Of a stretch of 64,000 bases of DNA, positions 8,465 through 61,952 are shown piece by piece. Source of the stretch: Rhodobacterales bacterium (GTDB lineage Bacteria > Pseudomonadota > Alphaproteobacteria > Rhodobacterales > Rhodobacteraceae). Under the pieces are notes generated by a model. It saw only the letters and a list, made by a program, of their open reading frames with translations, searched no databases and was not told the origin of the DNA. The position numbers and the translations under genes were made by a program. Every line of letters begins with the position of its first letter. The stretch's first letter is position 1. Where the stretch lies: the NCBI GenBank assembly GCA_002747035.1, contig PDRZ01000015.1, positions 124,001 to 188,000 on the forward strand. Direction: 5' to 3'.

Positions 8465-8477
8465 GGGTCCGGGCTTG

Positions 8478-8524
8478 AAGCGTTTCCAGTTCTTGCCGTG
8501 ATCCAACAAGAACTGGAAACGCTT
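8478..8524. repeat. Palindromic dispersed repeat, short class A
   Basis: Two perfect 18-base arms, AAGCGTTTCCAGTTCTTG and its complement, flank an 11-base centre containing GTGATCCAA. It is flanked by TG on the left and TA on the right. The same core (GTGATCCRACAATAAC-like) occurs at 51264-51315 and 53938-53984, and within the longer elements near 52.6 and 61.7 kb. It sits between the serA terminator and the start of a phosphoesterase gene. Confidence 0.85.
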
Positions 8525-8529
8525 TAACG

Positions 8530-16465: not shown

Positions 16466-17311
16466 TTAACGCCCGGGCAGATCCTCTCGGGCGGGGGCGG
16501 GATCCCAGTTCTCGATCAGTGCCATGGCCTCGTCTGCCGAATCCACAAATCGGAACAGGCTGAGGTCCTCGGCCGAGATCGTGCCGGCATCTGAAAGTGC
16601 GTCCCAGTTTATGATTCTGGTCCAGAAGTCGCGGCCAAACAGAAGGAAGGGGACACGTTTCATCCGGCCTGTTTGAATCAGCGTGAGCGATTCAAACAGC
16701 TCGTCCAACGTACCGAACCCACCGGGGAAAATCGTGATCGCGCGGGCGCGCATCAGGAAATGCATCTTGCGGATCGCGAAATAGTGGAAGTTGAAACACA
16801 GGTCGGGCGTCACGTATTCATTGGGTGCCTGTTCGTGCGGCAGCACGATGTTCAACCCGATCGAGGCCCCGCCTGCGTCCTGCGCGCCCCGGTTGCCTGC
16901 CTCCATTACACCGGGGCCACCCCCGGTCACGACCACGTTCCTGTGCCCCCCGCTTTCCAGAGATTTCAGCGTCATCAGCCGGGCAAATTCCCGCGCCTCG
17001 TCATAAAAGGACGAAAGGTCGGCCAGCGTTTGCGTGCGCGCGGTTTGCTTTTTCGCAGGTTCCGGGATGCGGGCCCCGCCAAACATGACGATGGTGCTTT
17101 CGATTCCCTTTTCATCCAGCATCATCAGGGGCTTGAGCAGCTCCAGCTGCAATCGCACCGGGCGCAGTTCATCGCGGCACAGGAATTCATCGTCGGCAAA
17201 GGCGAGCCGATAGGCCGGGGCACGGGTTTGCGGGGTGTCTGGTACGTGTTCCGCGCTGTCCACATCGGTATGGGCATCACGGAACGGGTTCAGGCGGTCT
17301 TCTTTGGTCAC
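16466..17311 (-). CDS. LOG family protein (TIGR00730-type, Rossmann fold)
   Basis: A 281-residue member of the family once annotated as lysine decarboxylase. Characterised members release free bases from nucleoside 5'-monophosphates (cytokinin-activating type). Both signatures are present: GGGPGVMEAGNRGAQDAG and PGGFGTLDE. About 65 N-terminal residues precede the core (FRDAHTDVDSAEHVPDTP...), typical of the longer subgroup. The substrate cannot be assigned, and bacterial members also act as general nucleotide nucleosidases. It is convergent with asparaginase. Confidence 0.88.
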   Translation of the reverse strand: MTKEDRLNPFRDAHTDVDSAEHVPDTPQTRAPAYRLAFADDEFLCRDELRPVRLQLELLKPLMMLDEKGIESTIVMFGGARIPEPAKKQTARTQTLADLSSFYDEAREFARLMTLKSLESGGHRNVVVTGGGPGVMEAGNRGAQDAGGASIGLNIVLPHEQAPNEYVTPDLCFNFHYFAIRKMHFLMRARAITIFPGGFGTLDELFESLTLIQTGRMKRVPFLLFGRDFWTRIINWDALSDAGTISAEDLSLFRFVDSADEAMALIENWDPAPAREDLPGR

Positions 17312-17403
17312 TCGGGTACTCCCTGATTGCGCGTTTATCCATGGCCTATACTGCCTTTGGCGGAGGTATTCTAATCCCTTGTTGCCGGACGGGTTCTCGC
17401 GGG

Positions 17404-17915
17404 CTATTTGGGACCGGGCAGGCCAGGCGTGCCGGTACAGTTGGACAGGTCAAACACGAAACGCGCCATTTTATATGTGATCTCGTCCGGGCGGGTGTCG
17501 AGGATGTGGATTTTGCCTGTACTCAGTTTCATCTGGAACGGTTGGACCCCCACATAGGCACCATATCCGTTTCTAAAGCGTTCGCCCTTTCACCTGAGAC
17601 AGGGAAAAGGGCGAAGGCAGCGCGACATTTATGTGTTTCGCGCGTCCTGCCAACACCCCGTGAGTCAGGGTTTTGGCAGGACGTTTTAGGTTTGATGTGG
17701 CCACACAGATGGGTCGCATCGCCCACCGTCTGATTGTAGCTCAGGCTGTGATGCTGGGCCGAAAGCGGGTCGCGCACGCCCATATTCGCCAGGGCGATAT
17801 TGACCCGGCCAAGGGTGCCTTTTTCCAACGCGGCTTCGCTGCCGTCCAGCGTGAGAGGGGTGGATAGGGTCGCGGTGGGGAGGGCCGCGAGCACGAAGAG
17901 AAGCAGAATACGCAT
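17404..17915 (-). pseudogene. Secreted small-protein gene interrupted by a mobile repeat
   Basis: The 5' part encodes a signal peptide (MRILLLFVLAALPTATLS) and a mature region with VNIALANMGVRDPLSAQ and THLCGHIKP. At that point a 111-bp palindromic repeat (17576-17686) begins and the frame runs into repeat-encoded residues and stops at 17529. Past the repeat, in another frame, comes NGYGAYVGVQPFQMK... ending FVFDLSNCTGTPGLPGPK at the stop 17404-17406. Removing the repeat plus one flanking TA joins the halves in frame as CGHIKP-R-NGYGAYVGVQPF, and I recall this continuous pattern from homologous Rhodobacterales proteins. The gene was probably intact until recently. A truncated product of 128 residues could still be made. 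Confidence 0.8.
17576..17686. mobile_element. MITE-like TA-flanked palindromic element, class B, copy 1
   Basis: A non-coding 111-bp element with imperfect inverted ends (AAGCGTTC left, GGACGTTT right) bounded by TA at 17574-17575 and 17687-17688. Inside are two stem regions: CCCTTTCACCTGAGACAGGG (17585-17604) and TCCTGCCAA...TTGGCAGGA. It is nearly identical to 20406-20515. It interrupts a secreted-protein gene, and excision with one TA restores that frame, which supports a TA target duplication like that of IS630/mariner-type transposition. No transposase is encoded. Confidence 0.85.
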
Positions 17916-18021
17916 GTAACGCCCAATAGTTGCTTGGAATTTCCAAATGGATACCGGAACAATGGGACGAAATTGGGGCGTGGCCGGGTTGCGAACCGCG
18001 CCAGATCAGGGAGAGCGGGTT

Positions 18022-18942
18022 ATGGAGTGGAAAGACGCGATCAAGGCGGCGCAGGTGCGGATCACGGGCCATGTGGTGAAAACGCCGGTGATGCGGTTTG
18101 ACGGGTTCGGGTTGGGGGGTCCGATCCAGATCAAGCTTGAACAGGTTCAGCATTCGGGAAGCTTCAAGGCGCGGGGGGCGTTCAATACGCTGCTTTCGGG
18201 ACCCGTGCCCGAGGCCGGGCTTGTGGCGGCGAGCGGGGGCAATCACGGTGCCGCGGTTGCCTTTGCCGCGCATCGGCTGGGTCATGATGCCCATATTTTC
18301 GTTCCCGAGATGGCAGGACCTGCGAAAATCGCGCTGATCGAACGGTGTGGGGCGCAGTTGACGGTGGTGGGCGGGGAATATGCCAACGCCCTGGCCGCAG
18401 CGCAGGAGTATGAAGATGCGAGCGGGGCGATGCAGATTCATGCCTATGACGCACCGGCCACCGTGGCCGGGCAGGGCACCTGTTTTGCGGAATGGGAGGC
18501 GCAGGGGTTGGAGGCCGACACGGTTTTGATCGCCGTGGGCGGTGGCGGGTTGGTCGCCGGGGCGCTGGCGTGGTTTGCGGGCGGGCGCAAGGTGGTAGCG
18601 GTGGAGCCTGAAACCTCCTGTGCATTGAACGCGGCGCTGGCCGCCGGAGCGCCGGTGGACGTGGAGGTTTCCGGGGTGGCCGCCAATGCGCTGGGCGCGC
18701 GGCGGATCGGGGAGATTTGTTTCGGTCTGGCGCAGGAGGTTGGGGTCGCGTCGGTTCTGGTCACGGACGCGGCCATCACCACCGCGCAGGCCGCGTTGTG
18801 GCGTGAGGCGCGGCAGTTGGTGGAGCCAGCCGGGGCCACGGCCCTGGCTGCGTTGATGTCCGGGGCCTATCGCCCGGAGCCGGGCGAAAAGGTGGCGGTG
18901 TTGGTGTGTGGTGGCAATTTCGCGCCGGATCCGTTTGGGTGA
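18022..18942 (+). CDS. Threonine/serine dehydratase-like PLP enzyme
   Basis: Fold-type II PLP enzyme of 306 residues, related to catabolic threonine/serine dehydratases, which deaminate the amino acid to a 2-oxoacid. Lys49 in SGSFKARGAFN is the PLP lysine. ASGGNHGAAVAFAA binds the substrate carboxylate, and AVGGGGLVAG binds phosphate. There is no regulatory ACT domain. I placed the start at MEWKDAIKAA, since the preceding 25 codons look non-coding. A structured T-run terminator follows. Serine racemase-like or 3-hydroxyaspartate dehydratase activity is also possible in this family. Confidence 0.85.
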   Translation: MEWKDAIKAAQVRITGHVVKTPVMRFDGFGLGGPIQIKLEQVQHSGSFKARGAFNTLLSGPVPEAGLVAASGGNHGAAVAFAAHRLGHDAHIFVPEMAGPAKIALIERCGAQLTVVGGEYANALAAAQEYEDASGAMQIHAYDAPATVAGQGTCFAEWEAQGLEADTVLIAVGGGGLVAGALAWFAGGRKVVAVEPETSCALNAALAAGAPVDVEVSGVAANALGARRIGEICFGLAQEVGVASVLVTDAAITTAQAALWREARQLVEPAGATALAALMSGAYRPEPGEKVAVLVCGGNFAPDPFG

Positions 18943-18951
18943 GCGCAGGGT

Positions 18952-19045
18952 AAAGACGCGCTTGGGCGGTTTCCCACCCTTGTGAGCGGGCGGTTGTGGC
19001 CAGGGTTTTGCGATCCCACCCCAACCGCCACGCGCGCGTCTTTTT
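18952..19045 (+). terminator. Probable structured terminator after the PLP dehydratase
   Basis: AAAGACGCGC (18952-18961) pairs with GCGCGTCTTT (19034-19043), ending in a five-T run. A nested GGCGGTT/AACCGCC pair lies inside. The stem is long-range, so efficiency is uncertain. Confidence 0.5.
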
Positions 19046-19160
19046 CAGGTTCAGGGCGGTGTCGATTATGAAGGAGGGCGCGTCGCATTGATCCGGGGCA
19101 GGATTTGCGCGTATATGCGACGGTAACGCAAGGGACAGACCCAAGGGAGATTCTGAAAAC

Positions 19161-19988
19161 ATGTCGAACGCCGCATTGGAAACCGCAATCGAAGCTGCGT
19201 GGGATGCGCGCGATAGCATCACCTCCGCCACCACCGGCGAAACCCGCGAGGCCATTGAGGACACGTTGAACGCGCTGGACAGTGGTAGTCTGCGTGTGGC
19301 CGAACGTCAGGATAACGGGGACTGGCATGTGAATCAGTGGGCCAAGAAGGCCGTGCTTCTGGGTTTCCGCCTGAAGGACATGGAAGAGCAAACCGGCGGG
19401 CCACAGGGTGGCGGCTGGTGGGACAAGGTCGACAGCAAGTTCAAGGGCTGGGGCGATAACCAGTGGAAGGCGGCCGGGTTCCGCGCCGTGCCCAACTGTG
19501 TCGTGCGCAAGTCGGCCTATGTGGCACCGGGCGTGGTGCTGATGCCGTCCTTTGTCAACCTTGGTGCCTATGTGGATGAAGGCACCATGGTCGATACCTG
19601 GGCCACCGTGGGATCCTGTGCCCAGATCGGCAAGAACGTGCACCTGTCGGGTGGCGTGGGCATTGGCGGAGTGCTGGAGCCGATGCAGGCGGGTCCGACC
19701 ATCATCGAGGACAATTGCTTTATTGGTGCGCGCTCGGAAGTGGTCGAGGGCTGTATTGTGCGCGAAGGTTCGGTTTTGGGCATGGGCGTGTTCATTGGCC
19801 AGTCCACCAAGATCGTGGATCGCGAAACCGGTGAGGTGATGTATGGCGAAGTGCCCTCGGGTTCGGTTGTTGTGGCCGGGTCGATGCCCAGCAGGAACGG
19901 TATTAACCTGTACTGTGCCGTGATCGTGAAACGCGTGGACGCACAAACCCGGTCGAAAACTTCGATCAACGAGCTGTTGCGCGACTGA
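19161..19988 (+). CDS. dapD: 2,3,4,5-tetrahydropyridine-2,6-dicarboxylate N-succinyltransferase
   Basis: Transfers succinyl from succinyl-CoA to tetrahydrodipicolinate in the succinylase branch of lysine and diaminopimelate synthesis. It has 275 residues, the usual size. An N-terminal helical domain ([16 protein letters not shown]) precedes the left-handed beta-helix built of hexapeptides ([41 protein letters not shown]). The C-terminal part has [19 protein letters not shown] typical GGGAGA ribosome site lies upstream. A strong terminator follows about 30 bases past the stop, so the gene stands alone. Confidence 0.97.
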
Positions 19989-20015
19989 TCTCTGCCGTCT
20001 TCCCGGTCGTATTCA

Positions 20016-20047
20016 CGCTGCCCCGGACCACCGGGGCGGCGTTTTTT
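20016..20047 (+). terminator. Rho-independent terminator after dapD
   Basis: CGCTGCCCCGG and CCGGGGCGGCG form an 11-bp stem (one G-T pair) around ACCA, followed by six Ts. Confidence 0.92.
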
Positions 20048-20405
20048 GCGTCCGCAGGAGATTTTTCCGACGGAGCGGCGTTGGCCGAACGTAGCAGGTA
20101 GGAACAGAACAAGTCGGGTCGGGAAAAATGGTACGGATCGTAGTGTTGGTGGGGTTGATGCTGTTGGCACAGGTGCTTGACCAGGGGGGCGGCCGCGACC
20201 CCGTGCGTACGGGCGGCGCGTTTGGGTCGGCTGTTCCGGTCTCTGTGGTCCCGTCGCCTGTGGTCCGACTGTCTGTGGCGCACACTGCTTTGGTGACAAT
20301 TTTGGTCACGGTTCGGTCCTGAGACCTAGCTGGTCCTCAGATCAGTCGTGGGTTCCGAACCTGCGGTTTGAAATCCGGGCGCGGGGGCCGTTTTTGCGCA
20401 GGCTA
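20048..20405. other. Intergenic stretch without a convincing gene
   Basis: Between the dapD terminator and a class B repeat. A 64-codon plus-strand frame (20128-20322) begins MVRIVVLVGLMLLAQVLDQ, but its second half is low-complexity Val/Ser, driven by a near-tandem CTGTGGTC motif, and it has only a weak ribosome site. I would not call it a gene. Nothing else is evident. Confidence 0.5.
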
Positions 20406-20515
20406 AAGCGTTCGGTCTTTAACCTGAGACAGGGAAAAGGGCGAAGGCCGCGCGACATTTATGTGTTTCGCGCGTTCTGCCAAAAACCCGTGAGTCAGGT
20501 TTTGGCAGGACGCTT
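20406..20515. mobile_element. MITE-like palindromic element, class B, copy 2
   Basis: About 110 bp, same order of blocks as 17576-17686: AAGCGTTC, then CCTGAGACAGGGAAAAGGGC, GAAGGC-GCGCGACATTTATG, TGTTTCGCGCG, a TGCC...GTGAGTCAGG stem, then TTGGCAGGACGCTT. Left flank TA, right flank TG (probably a decayed TA). It lies about 90 bases upstream of the next gene and could carry part of its promoter region. Confidence 0.85.
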
Positions 20516-20608
20516 TGGGAAGCGCACGGTTGATGGGCTCGCCCGGGGGTGGACCTTTGCCGCCAAATTGGGCATTTCGGAGCAAAGCAACCGCAAAGGG
20601 GCCGTGTG

Positions 20609-20956
20609 ATGGGCGAGAAGAAGAGCGAGAAGCGCAAGTCGCGGCAACAGGTTTACACCTTGCTGGTTCAGATCGGCCGCAAGGACGGGGACGGGTTGCC
20701 CGAGGGTGCCACGGGTGCCGCGTTGATGGTGTTTGCCAGCGGTGTGGACGAGGCGGAAGCGGTGCGCGAAACGGTGGCCATTCTGAAACAGGCCGATACC
20801 GCGCCTCTGGATGTCACGGGTTATGGCACGTTGGAAGAACGCCAGGCCGAGGGCCATGACATTTCCGACGAGGAGCGCGAGTTGATGGACCGCGCTCTTG
20901 CCGAAAATTCCGTCATCGTGGTGCAGATGACCCCGTTTTTCGACGAAGACGAATAA
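20609..20956 (+). CDS. Conserved-looking hypothetical cytoplasmic protein
   Basis: A 115-residue acidic protein, MGEKKSEKRKSRQQVYTLL..., with a basic start, one alpha/beta unit (VYTLLVQIG, GAALMVFASGVDEAEAVRETVAIL), and an acidic tail ending FFDEDE. It has no signal or membrane segment. I do not recognise the family. The alternation of strand, helix (AEAVRETVAILKQ) and strand (PLDVTGYG, SVIVVQMTPF) suggests a small ferredoxin-like fold. Start chosen at 20609 after AAAGGGG. The gene lies just downstream of a class B repeat and upstream of a HAD-hydrolase remnant. Confidence 0.7.
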   Translation: MGEKKSEKRKSRQQVYTLLVQIGRKDGDGLPEGATGAALMVFASGVDEAEAVRETVAILKQADTAPLDVTGYGTLEERQAEGHDISDEERELMDRALAENSVIVVQMTPFFDEDE

Positions 20957-20966
20957 GCCCGCAGGG

Positions 20967-21125
20967 GCAGGTTTTCCGAATCTTGACGGGGCTTTGACCG
21001 ATCCCGCGCCCGGAATCCTGGGGTTGTTTCGCTATGCGTTGGACAAGATCGGGTTGGGGGATGGGCCGGACGATTTGAACCGGATCATCGGGTCACCCCT
21101 TGGCGACAGCTTTTGCCGACGGTGA
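20967..21125 (+). pseudogene. Remnant of a HAD-family (phosphoglycolate phosphatase-like) hydrolase
   Basis: Without a start codon, an open frame of 52 codons reads AGFPNLDGALTDPAPGILGL, FRYALDKIGLGD, GPDDLNRIIGSPLGDSF and stops at 21123-21125. This is the N-terminal pattern of HAD hydrolases (DLDGTLTDP-x-GI, then RYAL-x-LG, then GPPL-x-SF), but the catalytic first Asp is replaced by Asn and nothing of the rest follows. It lies directly after the stop of the 115-residue gene and upstream of the GAPDH gene. Best read as a decayed 5' fragment. Confidence 0.6.
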
Positions 21126-51263: not shown

Positions 51264-51315
51264 CTAAAGCGGTTTCAGCCATGGCTGTGATCCGACAATA
51301 ACCGGAAGCACTTTA
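51264..51315. repeat. Palindromic dispersed repeat, short class A
   Basis: TA-flanked element of about 50 bases. Left end AAGCGGTTTCAG, centre GTGATCCGACAATAAC, right end CGGAAGCACTT then TA. More diverged than the copy at 8478-8524. It lies between convergent genes. Confidence 0.7.
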
Positions 51316-52612: not shown

Positions 52613-52729
52613 TAAAGCGTTTCCGCATTACGTTGACTCAGCATGATATGGAAACGCTGTGTAACACAGTATGGATGTGGGCGTTTCCGGTTATTGTGTG
52701 GATCACAGGAATAACCGGAAACGACTTTA
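52613..52729. mobile_element. MITE-like palindromic element, long class A, copy 1
   Basis: Bounded by TA on both sides (52613-52614, 52728-52729). It consists of two palindromic modules: AAGCGTTTCCGCATTACGTT...GGAAACGCT, and GGCGTTTCCGGTTATT...AATAACCGGAAACGACTT, joined by AACACAGTATGGATGTGG. The same order occurs inverted at 61723-61837. The short class A repeats correspond to the second module alone. Confidence 0.8.
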
Positions 52730-52879: not shown

Positions 52880-53938
52880 ATGACGCGCGATGTGATTACA
52901 GAATATGACACGAGGGTGGCCGCAGGGGGGGTGACCGCTGATCCTGTCCAACGGGCGGTCCTGCCTGAATTTGAACGGATCCGCGCGGGGTTGGCCCAGC
53001 CGGTGAAACGCGGGTTTTTCCGCAAATCCGCCGAGCCGCCCAAAGGGCTTTACCTGTGGGGCGGGGTGGGACGCGGAAAATCCATGCTGATGGACCTGTT
53101 CGTCGATTGCCTGAACGTGCCCGCGCGCCGGGTGCATTTCCACGCTTTCATGCAGGAAATCCACGCCGAAATGCACAAGGCCCGCGAGGCGGGCGTGCCG
53201 GACGCGCTGGCCCCCGTCGCCAAGGCCGTGAGCGACAGCGTGCGGTGCCTGGCTTTTGATGAAATGCAGATCACCGATATCACCGACGCGATGATCGTGG
53301 GCCGCCTGTTCGAGGCGCTGTTTGCCGCCGGAGTCGTGGTGGTGACAACATCGAACCGGGTGCCGGATGATCTTTATAAGGATGGGTTGAACCGACAGCT
53401 GTTCCTGCCCTTCATCGACATCCTGAAAGACCACATGGTGGTCACCGAAATGGACAGCCCCACCGATTACCGCCAGGGGCGGCTGGAAGGCGGGCCGGTC
53501 TATTTCACCCCAAACAACAGGGCGGCGCGGGCACAGATGGATGCGATCTGGCACGACCTGACCGGCGGGATGAGCGCGCCTTATACGCTTCTTGTCAAAG
53601 GGCGCGAAGTGGCGATCCCGGGGTTTCACAACGGCGTGGCCCGGGCCAGCTTTTATGACCTGTGCGGCAAGATGCTGGGCCCCGGGGACTATCTCGCGCT
53701 TGCAGAGGAGGCCAAGGTACTGCTGCTTGACGATATTCCCTGCCTGGGGCGCAGCAATTTCAACGAGGCCAAACGGTTCGTAACCTTGATCGACGCGCTT
53801 TACGAAGCCGGGGTGCGGTTGATCGCCAGCGCGGCGGCCGAGCCGGAAATGCTCTATCTCGAAGGCGAAGGCACGTTTGAATTCGAGCGCACGGCCAGCC
53901 GGTTGCGGGAAATGCAAAGCGCCGATTGGGGGACATAA
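52880..53938 (+). CDS. zapE: Cell division protein ZapE (AFG1-like AAA ATPase)
   Basis: ATPase reported in E. coli to act on the Z ring late in division. It has 352 residues. Walker A GGVGRGKS (61-68), then LFVDCLNVPARRVHFHAFMQ, Walker B CLAFDEMQITDITDAMIVGR, the TTSNRVPDDLYKDGLNRQLF sensor region and CLGRSNFNEAKRFVTLIDAL near the end. Start chosen at MTRDVITEYD; the frame extends upstream into sequence next to a repeat. Its TAA stop (53936-53938) includes the left TA flank and first base of a short class A repeat, so the last codons abut the insertion. Confidence 0.93.
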   Translation: MTRDVITEYDTRVAAGGVTADPVQRAVLPEFERIRAGLAQPVKRGFFRKSAEPPKGLYLWGGVGRGKSMLMDLFVDCLNVPARRVHFHAFMQEIHAEMHKAREAGVPDALAPVAKAVSDSVRCLAFDEMQITDITDAMIVGRLFEALFAAGVVVVTTSNRVPDDLYKDGLNRQLFLPFIDILKDHMVVTEMDSPTDYRQGRLEGGPVYFTPNNRAARAQMDAIWHDLTGGMSAPYTLLVKGREVAIPGFHNGVARASFYDLCGKMLGPGDYLALAEEAKVLLLDDIPCLGRSNFNEAKRFVTLIDALYEAGVRLIASAAAEPEMLYLEGEGTFEFERTASRLREMQSADWGT

Positions 53939-53984
53939 AACGTTTCCAGCTATTTCTGTGATCCAACAATAACTGGAAATGCTG
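53938..53984. repeat. Palindromic dispersed repeat, short class A, abutting zapE
   Basis: TA-flanked (53936-53937 and 53985-53986 approximately). Left AAACGTTTCCAGC, centre CTGTGATCCAACAATAAC, right TGGAAATGCTG. It provides part of the zapE stop codon and is followed at once by a class C repeat. Confidence 0.75.
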
Positions 53985-54003
53985 TAGGGTCCGATCCCGG
54001 GCA

Positions 54004-61630: not shown

Positions 61631-61952
61631 GGCAACTGCATAGCCTCCTTGCGCCCTTACCGCCAGATACGACGGTGCGCGAGTTTCAAGACTGTTGCCT
61701 TCCGGCGCGCATGATTTGTAGCCAAAGCGTTTCCAGTTACTGTTGGAGCACAGCAAGAGTTGAAAACGCCCACATCCCTACTGTGTTGCGCGGCGTTTCC
61801 ACATCACGCTGAGCCAACGTCATGCGGAAACGCTTTGATAATCGTGTCTGCGTGAGGCATGGAAGTCAGCGCGAGGGTTTGCGGCCCCTTGTGCCTGCGT
61901 CGACCCTTGTTTATGCCGTTTCCTGAGATTTTAGGAGAGGTCCATCAATCCC
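61631..61952. other. Divergent intergenic region upstream of ilvD
   Basis: Holds the start region of the CPBP pair, one long class A repeat (61723-61837) and the ilvD leader. AGGAGAGG (61933-61940) lies 12 bases before the ilvD ATG, a little far. I see no attenuator or Leu/Ile/Val-rich leader peptide. Confidence 0.5.
61723..61837. mobile_element. MITE-like palindromic element, long class A, copy 2 (inverted)
   Basis: Reverse-complement counterpart of 52613-52729: AAAGCGTTTCCAGTTACTGT...AAAACGCCCACATCC, a CTGTGTTGCG linker, then GGCGTTTCCACATCACGCTG, AGCCAACGTCATGCGGAAAC, GCTTTG. Flanks are CA and TG instead of TA. It lies between the divergent CPBP and ilvD genes. Confidence 0.8.

Follow-up and report, generated by a model that had tools for sequence, protein, structure and literature searches.

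The element and the gene that it interrupts

The window, a stretch of 64,000 nucleotides from a Rhodobacterales bacterium (assembly GCA_002747035.1, contig PDRZ01000015.1), contains an element of 111 bp at 17576-17686 that is flanked at both ends by the dinucleotide TA (17574-75 and 17687-88); its parts, its relatives in the window and the gene that it interrupts are collected in Table 1. When the element is removed together with one TA (113 bp), a frame of 399 nt encoding 132 aa remains on the minus strand; it runs from ATG at 17915 to TAG at 17404 and is the same whichever TA is retained. With the element in place the upstream frame reads through it and stops out of frame at 17529, giving a 128-aa chimera; the C-terminal half of the host gene is lost because of the frameshift (113 bp net) and not because of a stop within the element. 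The product of the interrupted gene is probably a small, exported protein, judged from a putative signal peptide picked out by eye. The insertion may be recent: the earlier note judged so from the downstream half of the gene, which is still open, without new stops. The element is 94.8% identical to a hand-typed consensus of its family. The two best matches of the neighboring gene, which encodes a PLP enzyme, come from Aquicoccus and Marimonas (80% and 82% identity), and records from Rhodobacteraceae or the Roseobacter group make up most of those listed for it.

Table 1. Features of the element, the interrupted gene and related repeats (positions in the window)
Feature	Position	Strand	Basis
111-bp MITE, family A	17576..17686	+	sequence; covariance model match 17574-17688, 127.8 bits; 58 genome copies
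Left duplicated target TA (target CTAG)	17574..17575		sequence
Right duplicated target TA	17687..17688		sequence
Left end, 28 nt with TA, resembles IS630 right end	17574..17601	+	family consensus 25/28 to L242
Right end, 28 nt with TA, resembles left end of the same IS630	17661..17688	-	family consensus 25/28 to L242
Hairpin 1, left end folded back	17578..17618	+	fold; stems covary between genera
Spacer; forms a middle hairpin here but not in every relative	17619..17642		fold
Hairpin 3, right end folded back	17643..17683	+	fold; tip inverted in 5/55 determinable own copies
N-terminal part (76 codons) of interrupted gene	17688..17915	-	joined frame, homolog alignment
C-terminal part of interrupted gene, out of frame since insertion	17404..17575	-	joined frame, homolog alignment
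Present-day 128-aa chimeric frame through the element	17529..17915	-	frame translation
Second family A copy	20404..20517	+	covariance model match
Family B copy, same architecture, different stem sequence	52613..52729	-	sequence; covariance model
Family B copy	61723..61837	+	sequence; covariance model
Single hairpin, apparent half-element, family B	8476..8526	-	sequence comparison
Single hairpin, apparent half-element, family B	51265..51315	-	sequence comparison
Single hairpin, apparent half-element, family B	53936..53986	-	sequence comparison

Copies in the genome, target and placement

The assembly to which the window belongs comprises 2.52 Mb in 47 contigs and is 77.7% complete. The core pattern of the element matches 68 times in this genome and a control pattern 0 times; 58 distinct copies could be aligned over at least 75 positions, a set that was built from fetched loci and leaves out one of the 68 core matches. 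The family (family A) has terminal inverted repeats, TAAAGCGTYC at either end. The flanking pairs of the 49 two-ended copies are TA/TA in 35, CA/CA in two, TG/TG in two, TC/TC in one and unequal in nine; the equal pairs other than TA (5/49) fit a true target duplication. Among the TA/TA copies 29 of 35 lie in a YTAR target, compared with 6.6% of the TA sites of the window, and nine of 35 lie in CTAG, compared with 0.4%; the copy at 17576-17686 is also in CTAG. IS630 itself is said, in the title of a 1991 paper by Tenzen and Ohtsubo, to prefer CTAG.

When the flanks of all 58 copies were joined, five matched across the junction elsewhere. The empty sites for L011 and L066 are uninterrupted copies of family B, a second repeat; that for L073 lies in the IS630 transposase gene of another genome (L177), and that for L061 lies in a further repeat. 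A candidate empty site for L042 was a self-match and was discounted. The earlier note had taken the element to be mobile, with TA as its duplicated target and with the ends given above; the coordinates were confirmed, the TA/TA pairs recur throughout the family, and mobility is supported by the 58 distinct copies, their target duplications and the empty sites.

Gene context was taken from a home-made gene caller trained on 26 frames of the window; by this measure 35 of the 49 two-ended copies fall between genes, 11 are placed exactly in a stop codon and three are inside genes. YTAR sites in stop codons hold 10 of 35 copies but account for 21 of 315 other sites (p = 2.8e-4), and YTAR sites inside genes hold 2 of 35 copies as against 127 of 315 other sites; with the in-gene YTAR sites excluded, stop-codon placement is still found for 10/33 copies versus 21/188 sites (p = 0.011). 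Insertion into a stop codon is harmless because the element starts with TA-A and so recreates a TAA stop, as in L067, L024, L047, L055, L006, L059, L025, L157, L028, L049 and L160; the simplest cause of the stop-codon excess is the purging of insertions elsewhere.

L012 and L023, at the ends of contigs C6 and C26, are apparently one copy seen twice in slightly different form, which means that the repeat may break assembly. L070 (1341-1569) is a composite: a family A copy has its left end split by a further TAAAGCGTTTCG element, about 116 bp long. In L160 (1456-1569) the right end bears left-type sequence, so that TAAAGCGTTCGACC stands at each side and one end looks as though copied over the other.

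Similarity to the ends of IS630 elements

The ends of the family A consensus resemble those of an IS630 element from a relative (L242, in G065): the right end of the IS matches the left end of the consensus at 25 of 28 positions, and the left end of the IS matches the right end of the consensus at 25 of 28. When the ends were compared crosswise the matches were 19 and 20; with the inner parts shuffled they did not exceed 19 and 22. A survey of IS630 ends covered 25 of the 30 loci that a transposase search had returned, of which nine were dropped for incomplete flanks; inverted ends of the TARAG type were found on 13 of the remaining 16, on elements of 1052-1057 bp, and on none of the other three. 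In the IS630 elements seen, the target TA is preceded by Y and followed by R. The transposase frame of L242, the best-matching IS, contains a stop; DDE_3 scores above its cut-off in L177 and L241, and a transposase from G259 is matched in 55 of 394 genomes at E <= 1e-20.

Because both ends match IS630 ends, the element looks like an IS630-derived MITE in which both ends of an IS630-family IS are present and each continues into a reverse-complemented copy of itself. Its assignment to the MITEs is based on a length of 111 bp, the lack of a transposase gene, many copies, terminal inverted repeats, a 2-bp duplication, IS630-like ends and empty sites. Family A is presumably moved in trans by an IS630-type transposase, as the sequences of the ends would indicate. 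No complete IS630 gene was found in its own genome as assembled (77.7% complete), where four DDE_3 matches are in pieces or have a stop, and DDE_3 is unmatched in five of the six other genomes with copies detected by sequence, including G362 (11 copies, 97% alike). Co-occurrence of the MITE with IS630 is weak, IS630 being present in 6 of 20 MITE-positive genomes and in 49 of 374 others (p = 0.046). According to a study of ISY100, also of the IS630 family, 30 bp of each end suffices; in vitro 34 of 39 insertions were normal TA insertions and two of 39 had AA/TT duplicated (PMC2170065).

Distribution, family B and single hairpins

Searching by sequence (E <= 1e-8, with two candidates scored in each genome) detected the element in 7 of 394 genomes. 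With a covariance model trained on 30 copies the number is 20 of the 394, the own genome included and each of another genus, a count from which strict filters may have removed some. Plasmid matches are partial and fall in three Aliiroseovarius records; of two Aliiroseovarius plasmid copies one is flanked by GA on both sides. The 23-base core had no exact match among viral contigs. In G259 three family A copies lie within about 7 kb (contig 82, 12291-19607).

The covariance model for the element also detects both family B copies of the window. Like the three single hairpins listed in Table 1, hairpins in L043 (857-905, folded) and L053 (600-648) are some 50 bp long and carry a TAAAGCG-type end at each side. 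These single hairpins are apparently half-elements of the same superfamily, to judge from their sequences, and one may view the 115-bp form as a pair of single-hairpin units plus a spacer.

Covariation of the hairpins

The element folds at -37.7 kcal/mol, compared with -15.8 (sd 2.7) for shuffled sequences, and 0 of 200 shuffles equaled it. With the pairing register given by RNAalifold, 30 copies show 64 cells in which both sides of a pair have changed, against 19.1 (sd 4.0) when shuffled (0/500 shuffles equal); sliding the pair partners in the same 30 copies gave at most 16 such cells. With the inner arms swapped among 21 representatives, the mean match out of 10 was 6.05 instead of 8.38 and 6.25 instead of 8.62, and for either hairpin the original value was reached by 0 of 2000 derangements; 13 of the 21 representatives were found by the structure-aware model and are therefore not independent of it. 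Within the own genome 46 copies give 10 compensatory cells versus 6.9 (sd 1.9), a value reached by 43 of 500 shuffles and thus no clear excess; compensation therefore seems confined to propagating lineages and not to act at each site. When the 58 own copies were examined, the tip of hairpin 3 was inverted in five of the 55 that could be determined (L164, L172, L054, L161 and L159); inversion was seen in 0 of 57 own copies of hairpin 1 and in 0 of 20 determinable copies of relatives.

Taken together, covariation between genera, none detectable within the genome and inverted tips suggest template switching, which is here rated above selection on folded ends as the source of the stem covariation. 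Homogenization of arms and inversion of spacers are both attributed to template switching in one study (PMC8604942), and template switching is described as able to create and maintain hairpins in another (PMC8794818). In the competing account the hairpins of the same MITE are kept by selection, a transposase or host factor requiring the ends to be folded (as a cruciform or single strand), so that changes in one arm are compensated in the other. The strong covariation between genera and the nearly constant length (113-117 in the 21 representatives) are in keeping with this, as is the lack of a compensation excess within the genome, which is expected if selection acts on active lineages only. 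However, the inverted tips are a mark of template switching as described in PMC8604942, the IS630 ends examined have by eye no folded-back arm, and for ISY100 30 bp at each end is enough (PMC2170065). Selection on folded ends is judged unlikely on this balance, while keeping an appreciable share of the probability.

A structured RNA or regulatory sequence, spread or kept for a function in the host, for example at mRNA 3' ends, would be in keeping with the conserved double hairpin and could account for the intergenic position of most copies and for the 11 of 49 two-ended copies that lie exactly in a stop codon. This is very improbable, as a compensatory excess is absent among the copies of the own genome, insertions with target duplication occur in genes and in other repeats, and the element has no match in Rfam (4227 families against 17000-21000, a segment with two copies, unmatched at E <= 1). 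In the same region, at 20003-20132 and outside the copies, a match to SNORA77 scored 26.7 bits (E 0.014) where the cut-off is 42, and is in all likelihood due to chance.

Proposed mechanism and significance

The reading preferred here, and held with high confidence, is that the element is a non-autonomous, IS630-derived MITE which was mobilized in trans into a YTAR site, where it broke a small gene, and whose stems are maintained by template switching. Each IS end (about 27 bp) is folded back on itself as a hairpin, and some 24 bp separate the two. An IS630-type transposase would recognize TAAAGC...ACCTGA at either end in trans, excise the element and paste it into the TA of YTAR, doubling the dinucleotide. 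In propagating lineages template switching between the arms may re-copy one from the other, sometimes flipping the tip, and the stems could thereby stay complementary as the sequence changes; settled copies would afterwards decay through point mutation.

A wider proposal is offered tentatively, with somewhat less than even confidence: that the copies belong to a fold-back MITE family of at least 20 genera in one bacterial family, that each IS630 end has become a hairpin able to move singly (about 50 bp) or in a pair of nearly constant length (about 115 bp), and that their covariation arises by template switching and not by selection on RNA. If true, this would offer an example from nature of covariation, commonly taken to prove a functional RNA, that arises from mutation. 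The combination of covariation between genera, none detectable within the genome and flipped tips means that the family could be used to test the share of template switching in RNA-like covariation, and could show how much of the covariation used in finding structured RNAs template switching alone yields. The ends, the target and the probable source are now fixed for a repeat family of a large bacterial group.

Homologs of the restored protein

Besides the own genome, 10 of the 394 have a match to the joined protein at E <= 0.01 (single-genome E-values from 1.8e-7 to 0.0043), the three best being at 1.8e-7, 1.7e-6 and 2.7e-5. In nine of the 10 matched genomes the motif C-G-x(5)-N-x(2)-G-x-Y-x-G spans the junction, and no element is present there; L154, considered as a homolog of the host gene, lacks the motif and was set aside as noise. 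An alignment of the own protein with eight relatives, from which L150 was omitted as its frame ends early and for which start codons were chosen by hand, has eight invariant columns: P50, A53, C71 and G72 before the junction at 76/77, and N78, G81, Y83 and G85 after it. The empty host site is seen at the protein level and in other genera, the sample holding no genome of the same genus. Among plasmids the host gene has one weak match, in Acinetobacter (E 2e-3; 61% of the query is covered, at 33% identity).

The earlier note had proposed that joining the flanks with a single TA restores the frame, and had named homologs missing the part after the junction as evidence to the contrary; the 132 aa are recovered, and the intact relatives contain this part and lack the element. 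It is highly improbable that the joined frame is open by chance or that the placement of the element here is an assembly error. In favor of a chance frame, the N half alone found only itself among 149 genomes (none in the other 148), the joined protein matches no family of Pfam or NCBIfam, and 59 loci around relatives of the neighboring gene hold no homolog, one stray match not extending across the junction (E 0.85 for the joined protein, 0.09 for the C half); homologs of similar length from other genera nevertheless align across the junction, and an assembly error is opposed by the position of the element deep within a 213-kb contig.

Comparison with known systems

The IS630 elements found in the same bacterial family, L241 and L242 among them, are like the element in having ends that agree at up to 25 of 28 positions on both sides; they differ in a length of about 1055 bp, a transposase gene and ends that are, by eye, not folded back. 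The Correia elements of Neisseria are small, TA-flanked and present in many copies; the likeness to the element lies in these features, and the hosts differ. A REPIN-like element moved by a RAYT or another IS200/IS605-type enzyme would likewise consist of small palindromes, single and paired, in many copies, but this is scarcely credible here, since the target dinucleotide is duplicated, the terminal inverted repeats are common to IS630 and IS200/IS605-type elements are not known to make a target duplication. REPINs (PMC3116915) share with the element the pairing of small palindromes and the presence of single forms; unlike them, the element has a target duplication and IS630-type ends. Rickettsia palindromic elements are also small palindromic inserts within protein genes; however, they are reported to form in-frame fusions (44 cases; PMC10969869), whereas the element described here causes a frameshift (113 bp net).

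Among the matches listed from the open-access literature, by titles and the beginnings of abstracts, no description of this repeat family was found, and the main text of a review of prokaryotic MITEs (PMC10969869) contains none of the strings rhodobact-, alphaproteo- and IS630. MITEs with IS630-like ends and a target duplication are already known as a kind from RUP of Streptococcus pneumoniae (PMC3049150). RUP is like the element in its length of about 107 bp, its many copies and its IS630-type ends (those of IS630-Spn1), as well as in target duplication, a folded structure and the occasional disruption of genes (PMC3049150). It differs in belonging to another phylum and in being AT-rich, the comparison being one of descriptions and not of sequences; family A is set apart from RUP by the folding back of each IS end, by its single-hairpin forms and by the covariation of its stems between genera.
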